Source: Acidobacteriaceae bacterium (GTDB lineage Bacteria > Acidobacteriota > Terriglobia > Terriglobales > Acidobacteriaceae). From it: a stretch of DNA of 32,609 nucleotides. The stretch spans positions 1-32,609 of the forward strand of contig PLOI01000055.1 in NCBI GenBank assembly GCA_003142015.1, read 5' to 3'. The notes under the pieces are model-generated. The model saw nothing but the letters and a program-made list of their open reading frames with translations. It did no database searches and had not been told where the DNA came from. Of this stretch, positions 6,470-28,294 are shown piece by piece (the stretch's first letter is position 1; every line of letters begins with the position of its first letter). Made by a program: the position numbers and the translations under genes.

Positions 6470-6540
6470 GCAATCCCTCAGGGGTTGAAACCCCTTGTGT
6501 ATAAGACTTCTTTCGGCACGACTGAAGTCGTGCCCTGACA
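6470..6540. repeat. Dispersed double-hairpin intergenic repeat, copy A (divergent)
   Basis: AGGGGTT-ga-AACCCCT (6480-6495) and GGCACGAC-tgaa-GTCGTGCC (6515-6534) in the convergent intergenic region. Confidence 0.6.
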
Positions 6541-6597
6541 CAAGGCCGGCGTTCTCGGCAGGATTCTTGAGCGGATTCGGCTGAGCGCGCCGCGTTC

Positions 6598-9630: not shown

Positions 9631-9735
9631 CCATTCCTTCCGGGGCTAAAGCCCGCGTTGGTTCTGCTGACTTTATGCGGGGGTTGAAACTCCCGTCTCC
9701 CTCCGGATCGAGTTTATTCGGAGACTGTAAAGACC
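9631..9735. repeat. Dispersed double-hairpin intergenic repeat, copy B
   Basis: GGGCTaaAGCCC (9643-9654) and CGGGGGTT-ga-AACTCCCG (9678-9695); closely matches copy D. Confidence 0.8.
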
Positions 9736-9838
9736 CCGTTGATCTTGCCGCATCTGCGACGCGGTTCAATCTGCGGCATTCAAAGCCTCAATTTCAGAAC
9801 CTCAACTTGTTCGGAGTTCCATTGGAAAGGATACGAAG

Positions 9839-10537
9839 ATGAATGCTCAAGCAGCCACAGCGAGGGATGAAGTGGTTTTTGCATCTGCGCGGCGAGTGAA
9901 TCAGGCGCTGACGGCTCGAATGGAGAAGCGCGCGTTGCAGTGGATGGCCGAGAGAGCGCCGAAGTGGGTGAGTTCGGACCAACTGACTCTGATGGGTTTT
10001 TGCGCGCAGGTGGGAGCTGGAATCTTCTATGGATTGTCGCGCTACAACCGCTACGCTCTGTTGCTGGTGATTCTGTGCCTCGTGCTGAACTGGCTGGGAG
10101 ACAGCATGGACGGGACACTGGCCCGAGTGCGCCGGCAACAGCGCCCGCGCTATGGATTCTATGTGGATCACATGGCGGATATCTTTGGAGCCGTCGCGCT
10201 GATGTGCGGGCTGGGCTGCTCCGGATTTCTGCACTGGCAGACGGCGGTCGCCATGCTTGTGGCGTTTCTGCTGCTGTCGAGCGAGAGCTACCTGGCCACA
10301 TATACTTTGACCTGCTTTCAACTTTCGCAAGGGATTTTCGGCCCCACGGAGATTCGGATTCTGCTGATTATCGGCAACCTGGCGCTACTGCGCAGCCCTT
10401 ACTCGACGCTGTTCGGGCACAAGATGCTGCTGTTTGATCTGGGAGGGACAATAGCAGCGGCGAGCATGTTCGCGATGGCGATGGCCGTCACCGTGCGGCA
10501 TACGGCGCAGCTCTACCGGCAGGAGCCGTTGCCGTGA
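9839..10537 (+). CDS. CDP-alcohol phosphatidyltransferase family protein
   Basis: Signature DSMDGTLARVRRQQRPRYGFYVDHMAD fits DxxDGxxAR(x8-9)GxxxDxxxD. Confidence 0.92.
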   Translation: MNAQAATARDEVVFASARRVNQALTARMEKRALQWMAERAPKWVSSDQLTLMGFCAQVGAGIFYGLSRYNRYALLLVILCLVLNWLGDSMDGTLARVRRQQRPRYGFYVDHMADIFGAVALMCGLGCSGFLHWQTAVAMLVAFLLLSSESYLATYTLTCFQLSQGIFGPTEIRILLIIGNLALLRSPYSTLFGHKMLLFDLGGTIAAASMFAMAMAVTVRHTAQLYRQEPLP

Positions 10538-10929
10538 ACACCTTTATCCGCTGGGGTAAGTTCAACCTGGTGGGAGCCATGGGGATGGTTGTGCAGCTTG
10601 GCACGCTCGCTTTCTTCGACCGTTGGGCAGCGGGCCATTACCTTTATGCTTCGGCCGCGGCCATAGAGCTTACGCTGTTGCACAACTTTGTGTGGCACGT
10701 GCACTACACGTGGAGGGACCGCAGAGACGACTCCGCGCTACTGGCCCAATTGACGCGATTTCATCTTTCAAACGGGCTGGTTTCCATGCTGGGGAATCTT
10801 GCGTTGATGCGAATACTGGTCGACGGGGCGCACATGCCGCTGCTCGCCTCGAATGGTATTGCGATTCTGTGCTGCTCAATTGTCAACTTCTTCCTCGGAG
10901 ATAACTTGGCGTTCGCGACAAGAAGGTAG
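10534..10929 (+). CDS. GtrA family membrane protein
   Basis: FNLVGAMGMVVQLGTLAFFDR...LLHNFVWHVHYTWRDR...FVNFFLGDNLAF-type pattern (here IVNFFLGDNLAF), four TM segments; GTGA overlap with upstream gene. Confidence 0.85.
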   Translation: MNTFIRWGKFNLVGAMGMVVQLGTLAFFDRWAAGHYLYASAAAIELTLLHNFVWHVHYTWRDRRDDSALLAQLTRFHLSNGLVSMLGNLALMRILVDGAHMPLLASNGIAILCCSIVNFFLGDNLAFATRR

Positions 10930-10965
10930 GCACTCCTCTCACTACATATAGCTCTCAGTGGCACA

Positions 10966-11127
10966 GCTAAGGAACCTCTGAATGAGCCCGTGTTGTAAGG
11001 CCACACTTCCTCAGGGGCTAAAGCCCACGTTGGTTATGCCGCATTTACGGCGCCCTTCGGCTGCGCTCAGGGCAGGCTTTAAAGCCGCGCCCTTTCAAAA
11101 CTCCGACTTAATCAGAGGTTCCTTAGC
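10966..11127. repeat. Dispersed repeat element, copy C, bounded by 16-bp perfect terminal inverted repeats
   Basis: GCTAAGGAACCTCTGA (10966-10981) and TCAGAGGTTCCTTAGC (11112-11127); internal GGGGCTAAAGCCC, GCCCTTCGGCTGCGCTCAGGGC and palindrome GGCTTTAAAGCC. Confidence 0.8.
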
Positions 11128-24424: not shown

Positions 24425-24660
24425 ATTCCTGCTGTAAGGCCATATTTCCTCAGGGGCAGAACAGGCTGCGGAAAAACTCGGGATTTCGTGTGAAATTGAC
24501 TGGGAATTTCCCTCCGGGGCTAAAGCCCGCGTTGATTCTGCTAGCATTATGCGGGGGTTGAAACCCCCGCCTCCTTCCGGACCGAGTTTATTTGCAACCT
24601 GTGAAACCCCTTGTTTCCCCGGCCCTTTCGGCATCCTTCGGCCGCGCTCAGGGTTTGGGA
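24411..24660. repeat. Dispersed repeat element, copy D (composite)
   Basis: GAACCTCTGAAT (24411-24422, as in copy C), GGGGCTAAAGCCC, GCGGGGGTT-ga-AACCCCCGC (24551-24570), and CCTTCGGCCGCGCTCAGGG. Confidence 0.85.
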
Positions 24661-28162: not shown

Positions 28163-28235
28163 GAACTTTCCCTCGGGGGCTAAAGCCCCGTTGATTTTGT
28201 TTGGCTTATGTACGGGCTGAAGCCCGTACCCTCAA
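28163..28235. repeat. Dispersed double-hairpin intergenic repeat, copy E
   Basis: GGGGCtaaaGCCCC (28176-28189) and GTACGGGCT-ga-AGCCCGTAC (28210-28229). Confidence 0.75.
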
Positions 28236-28294
28236 ATTGACCCATTACCTTTTCCACGGTAAAATGCGGCTGGCAGTGGTGCGGCGGCAGAGTA

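Follow-up and report, generated by a model that had tools for sequence, protein, structure and literature searches.

The window, the whole 32 609-nt stretch of contig PLOI01000055.1 analysed here, carries related sequence in five intergenic regions, as the initial annotation had stated, and one covariance model (R1) fitted all five copies (A–E, plus strand) far above chance. R1 was built from 22 rows representing 21 copies (one locus was entered twice), with B, D and E among its rows and A and C outside the model, so that the whole-genome E-values given below for B, D and E are favourable by construction. The sequence GGGCTAAAGCC was common to four of the five regions, and two of the regions formed a 103-nt direct repeat with 84% identity. 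On the plus strand the unit consists of CCCTC(A/C)G, a first hairpin (GGGGCTAAAGCCC), a spacer of ~22 nt ending in TTATG, TTTAC or TTTGC, a second hairpin with a two-base loop that is mostly GA or AA, and a short tag at the foot of the second hairpin.

Copies B (9633–9712, E = 1.4e-25) and D (24507–24586, E = 8.2e-28) belonged to a GGAG-tag subfamily. The alignment placed the first hairpin, second hairpin and tag of B at 9642–9654, 9677–9696 (GCGGGGGTTGAAACTCCCGT) and 9697–9705 (CTCCCTCCG on the plus strand, CGGAGGGAG on the minus strand), and those of D at 24516–24528, 24551–24570 and 24571–24579 (CTCCTTCCG). Copy E (28167–28245, E = 2.9e-21), of a TGAAGG-tag subfamily with GTACGGGCT stems, had its aligned hairpins at 28176–28189 and 28210–28229 and its tag from 28230 (CCTCAAA). 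In copy A (6472–6550, E = 1.4e-6), of a GTCAG-tag subfamily, the first hairpin was aligned at about 6482–6493 (GGGTTGAAACCC), the second was located at 6515–6534 (GGCACGACT-GA-AGTCGTGCC) by both the alignment and an exact stem-plus-tag pattern, and the tag, from 6535 (CTGACAC), by the same pattern. The near-palindrome, spacer and second hairpin described initially were thus recovered, except that AGGGGTT-ga-AACCCCT in A, first taken for the second hairpin, lies at the position of the first, which has diverged.

Copy C (11005–11107, E = 5.3e-8) belonged to a GAAAG-tag subfamily, with its first hairpin aligned at 11014–11026 and its tag at 11092–11100 (CTTTCAAAA). Its second hairpin (11049–11091, GGCGC...GCGCC) was split by an inserted CCCTTCGGCTGCGCTCAGGG module (CTTCGG/CTCAGGG), and two 29-nt outer inverted arms with 83% complementarity (10966–10994 and 11099–11127) surrounded the copy. 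A CCTTCGGC(T/C)GCGCTCAGGG module recurred at 11055–11072 and 24636–24653, beside or inside double hairpins, and is probably a further repeat nested within these.

Copy number and subfamilies

Searching the genome and its relatives with the covariance model, a check proposed together with the first description, found copies to be abundant elsewhere in the genome and in congeners. At least 123 copies were detected by R1 at E ≤ 0.01 in the 3.4-Mb source genome, a lower bound because scoring covered only 150 of the 1201 candidates from the first look, and all 36 congeneric genomes searched with the covariance model (the source genome included) contained copies. Outside the genus, copies were absent from most sister-family genomes and present in a few other families of the class. 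The pattern GGGCTAAAGCC...TTATG had 22 matches in the source genome and its reversed control had none. A literature search returned no match to the exact repeat sequence, and no characterized repeat family was found to match the copies exactly; their general kind (REP elements and their transposases) is known.

Among 118 aligned copies, the second hairpin was the variable part, and its stem and foot tag changed together, defining subfamilies, four of which are represented in the window. Stems GCGGGGGTT or CAGGGGCCT occurred with CTCCCTCC (window B and D), GGCACGACT with CTGACACA (A), GGCACGGCT with CTTTCAAA (C, where the hairpin is the one split by the other module) and GTACGGGCT with CCTTCAA (E), with a few exceptions such as GGCACGACT with CTTTCAAA. 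In this alignment 96.4% of the cells were paired, and 331 double-sided changes were counted against 114 in shuffles, beyond all shuffles. As described at first, the hairpin structure is kept while the stem sequence varies. The double changes were mostly swaps of the whole second hairpin between subfamilies and not independent compensatory changes, which indicates that the hairpin matters and is no proof of an RNA; covariation was rejected as such a proof on this ground.

Association with REP-associated tyrosine transposases

Ten Y1_Tnp matches were found in the source genome, and one of them, a REP-associated tyrosine transposase (RAYT) gene (G000:C3), had inverted double hairpins on both sides ending in CTCCCTCCG, the GGAG tag. 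Named relatives of this RAYT suggest that the host is probably a member of the Acidobacteriaceae. Relatives of the gene were examined in 80 congeneric genomes, and 76 RAYT loci were classified by tag. Outward-facing double hairpins bearing the gene's own tag were present on both flanks of 56 of the 76 genes and on one flank of the other 20, some of which reach a contig end, while none of 55 control gene loci had tagged double-hairpin flanks. A representative of each of the six RAYT clades scored above the cut-off of NCBIfam NF047646 (REP_Tyr_transpos), with 88–115 bits versus 80. With tag labels assigned from the flanks and the tree computed from the proteins alone, the six tag classes of the 76 RAYTs corresponded to six clades, requiring 5 changes, the minimum, against a mean of 44.9 for shuffled labels; this monophyly is partly co-inheritance, because the flanks pass on with the gene, as in several GAAAG RAYTs that precede a carB-like gene. 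In seven loci (L140, L142, L145, L146 and L148–L150) the GAAAG-tag RAYT directly preceded this gene, which starts with MPRRNDIQKILVIG and which, from reading its sequence, we presume to be carB; the RAYT there is kept vertically and is possibly domesticated.

In exact-pattern counts over 79 genomes, copy number was higher where the cognate RAYT was present, and with two flanking copies subtracted per RAYT it remained so for the GGAG (p = 0.006), GTCAG (p = 0.0007) and TGAAGG (p = 0.04) subfamilies, by statistics that ignore phylogeny. In the uncorrected test, all but one of the 15 non-cognate controls failed to reach significance at the 0.05 level. The source genome, 88% complete, has GTCAG, GAAAG and TGAAGG copies, and only the GGAG clade was identified among its assembled RAYTs. 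No TGAAGG RAYT was identified in the four genomes richest in TGAAGG copies (G064, G092, G065 and G035, with 33–59 copies), so that there the RAYT must have been lost or be missing from the assembly, or else a different transposase must be involved. The stem that goes with the GGAG RAYT is CAGGGGCCT, whereas that of window copies B and D is GCGGGGGTT, with an identical tag; none of the RAYTs was seen with the exact GCGGGGGTT stem on both flanks.

Another RAYT group of the source genome (L002–L005, L007 and L009; motif EHVH...Y[IM]HRNP) was rejected as a partner, its flanks bearing different repeats, e.g. GGTGCCCCAGGTCCGGATTTTCGGACCTGGG. One flanking repeat of this group recurred in the RimO linker of genome G028. 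L001 encoded a 148-aa IS200-like Y1 transposase (YIQNQEEHH) between inverted double hairpins (GCGCCGTAGGCGC ... CCCCGCGCTTCAGCGTGGGG); it matches subclass 1.2, which is listed without a REP (PMC6006769).

Genomic positions and insertions within genes

Genes were called with a purpose-made simple codon-score gene finder. By these calls, 98 element clusters of the source genome comprised 69 in intergenic regions, 25 overlapping predicted genes and 4 at contig edges, and the intergenic sites (42 tandem, 14 divergent and 13 convergent) resembled element-free gaps. The gene that separates copies B and C was traced in 28 relatives, where synteny was kept around both sites. The element was absent from site C in all 28, although the neighboring gene was retained, and was present at site B in two, both times in the opposite orientation. 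That both sites are mostly empty counts against a conserved terminator or RNA there.

In 20 predicted genes of the source genome, 21 copies were 100 bp or more away from both ends of the gene and left its reading frame open over the whole length, and in-gene copies were found in both orientations. NCBIfam named ten of the insert-bearing proteins: MetG, RimO, RsmB, UvrC, TrmD, CCA-tRNA nucleotidyltransferase, Maf, NadD, a 23S rRNA methyltransferase and QueG. Solved TrmD structures aligned on either side of the insert and skipped it, and the TrmD linker measured 22–25 residues in many species of the genus. In both rimO and trmD, one linker was occupied by different subfamilies in different species, most relatives having no insert. 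The TrmD linker held a TGAAGG-type insert in the source genome, GGAG-type inserts in G004 and G010 and a GTCAG-type insert in G026. The RimO linker held a GGAG insert in the source genome, TGAAGG-type inserts in G018, G092 and G001, GTCAG-type inserts in G011 and G009, a GTAG-type insert in G010 and a TGTATCAG-type insert in G028, and none in at least 10 other genomes. By these sequence comparisons, copies have entered housekeeping genes of soil Acidobacteriota repeatedly with the reading frame intact. The minus-strand peptides FNPRI...RALAPE(G) had initially been called spurious; they are not always so, because the same peptides are predicted to be read in frame inside real genes such as metG, rimO, trmD and uvrC.

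These positions bear on whether the copies could be transcription terminators or 3′-end mRNA stabilizers selected at gene ends, with their dispersal incidental. The hairpins are stable and GC-rich, three of the five window copies do lie between convergent genes, as first noted, and REPs elsewhere can show such side effects (PMC3733652). However, the convergent placement did not extend to a genome-wide bias, a comparable number of sites being divergent; the second hairpin has no T-tract, the GC hairpin followed by a T-run of an intrinsic terminator being absent; and terminator scans, like promoter scans, gave matches near chance, with only the first hairpin of E matching, weakly. With the copies inside genes and the lack of conservation at sites B and C, we consider a terminator or stabilizer function very improbable. 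Of the roles initially listed, the mobile REP/MITE-like unit was the one supported, and those of terminator and non-coding RNA were not.

Units bounded by terminal inverted repeats

Copy D is contained in a MITE-like 142-bp unit (24461–24602, plus strand) with terminal inverted repeats ACAGGCTGCGGAAAAACTC and GAGTTTATTTGCAACCTGT, whose flanks are each one half of a different REP hairpin. Seven units of the source genome, D and six others, had terminal inverted repeats of 19–24 bp and a length of ~137–162 bp. The ACAGGYTGCGGAAAAACTC-ended units were that of the window and those of L151, L152, L154, L155, L173 and L216, and the flanks of most of them were halves of a REP hairpin (GGGGCTAA on one side, AAAGCCC on the other). 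In some units these halves are consistent with a target duplication of 2 or 4 bp, and in others, L155 among them, they derive from different hairpins. The ACAGGYTGCGGAAAAACTC-ended units may represent a second element targeting hairpin loops, or a recombination product.

Such ends raise the alternative that the copies are MITEs of the classical kind, with the hairpins as passengers and a DDE transposase as the mobilizing enzyme. We regard this as a slim chance, since the terminal inverted repeats occur in a minority of copies only and the TrmD and RimO inserts lack them, spanning roughly from the tag to the first hairpin. The least probable of the alternatives is that the copies form a conserved family of structured non-coding RNAs or riboswitches, for which the strong base-pair conservation of the 118 copies would speak, given that an Rfam covariance-model search with E-values up to 1 allowed found nothing, that in-gene copies lie in both orientations, that orthologous sites are not kept and one orthologous gap has copies on opposite strands, and that changes of the second hairpin track the foot tag and the RAYT clade.

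Comparison with known systems

REP elements and RAYTs have been described before, as have the guide tetranucleotide and REPs inside genes (PMC3733652, PMC6006769, PMC8266576). The present family resembles REP/BIME/REPIN elements with RAYT (TnpA-REP) genes, and REPtrons, in its short palindromes, in its tens to hundreds of copies, mostly intergenic (at least 123 copies; 69 of 98 clusters), in the hairpin tag at the 5′ foot, and in a linked Y1 transposase gene, a RAYT by its NF047646 match, between outward-tagged inverted copies. It differs in having two unequal hairpins per unit, in six tag types that follow transposase clades within one genus, and in its tags, which are GGAG, GTCAG, TGTAACAG, GAAAG and TGAAGG and not GT[AG]G; a GTAG subgroup is also present, limited to a sister RAYT group. 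Since the window copies carry GGAG, GTCAG, GAAAG and GAGG/GAAGG-type tags and not the canonical GTAG/GTGG 5′-foot tag, we filed them as a variant and not as canonical REPs. Inverted pairs at a fixed spacing of ~129 or 195 bp, REPIN-like, were found in relatives G064, G065 and G035, and the window copies are all single units and not the two inverted REPs of a REPIN.

The TIRYT genes and TIRtrons of Acidobacteria (Di Nocera and co-workers, 2013, PMC3733652), compared here by description, are similarly RAYT-like genes flanked by inverted repeats. Some of those repeats are double-palindromic and one is a repeat family in Koribacter (PMC3733652), but such a family was reported for only one of three Koribacter genes. 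TIRtrons are defined by a GGGGWSAS motif in the flanking terminal inverted repeats and by the TIRYT sequence group. Class 3 TnpA of Solibacter, also a HUH/Y1 enzyme of Acidobacteria, accompanies up to ~600 secondary structures per genome (2018 phylogenomic survey, PMC6006769). It has a Y----Q motif and a CnGA foot, whereas the GGAG RAYT here has HFH, YIGENP and other feet; Class 3 TnpA was rejected as the partner on the YIGENP motif of the GGAG RAYT in the source genome. Rickettsia RPEs and intragenic GTAG/CGTC REPs (PMC3733652) are likewise in-frame palindromic inserts of 20–30 residues in housekeeping and DNA-repair genes. CGTC elements are without a linked transposase, whereas every subfamily here has one, and different subfamilies here hit one linker in different species.

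Proposed mechanism and implications

We conclude, with a probability of about 0.88, that the family consists of non-autonomous, REP-like elements that transpose as single strands and depend for their mobility on REP-associated tyrosine (HUH/Y1) transposases acting in trans. On the minus strand the order within each unit is 5′-tag, second hairpin, spacer, first hairpin-3′. By analogy with TnpA-REP, the RAYT would bind the folded second hairpin of single-stranded DNA. The tag at the 5′ foot of that hairpin would guide the choice of the cleavage site, as GTAG does for TnpA-REP; every tag/stem subfamily has a RAYT clade of its own. After cleavage, the ~75–80-bp unit would be inserted elsewhere, mostly into intergenic DNA and also into gene linkers, where stop-free units would be read through as insertions of ~25 residues. 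The system may be active at present.

While REP/RAYT systems and intragenic REPs were known already, the pairing of non-GTAG tags with transposase clades is new. The choice of REP and cleavage site by a RAYT is a general question for such systems; mutating GTAG shifts cleavage in vitro (PMC8266576). With six tag types on one transposase tree, guide–enzyme co-evolution becomes directly testable. A more tentative proposal, to which we give slightly less than even odds, is that within this one genus RAYTs diversified their guide tag (GTAG, GGAG, GTCAG, TGTAACAG, GAAAG and TGAAGG) in step with the protein, as a natural retargeting series, while stop-free elements keep supplying in-frame peptide insertions to the linkers of essential proteins. 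The recurrent peptides FNPRI...RALAPE, KGTGFSPY...ALAPE and QGTTSVVP...GALAPE in Acidobacteriota proteins should be annotated as mobile-element inserts, and the rimO and trmD linkers lend themselves to studying how an enzyme can gain peptide from mobile DNA while the host survives.
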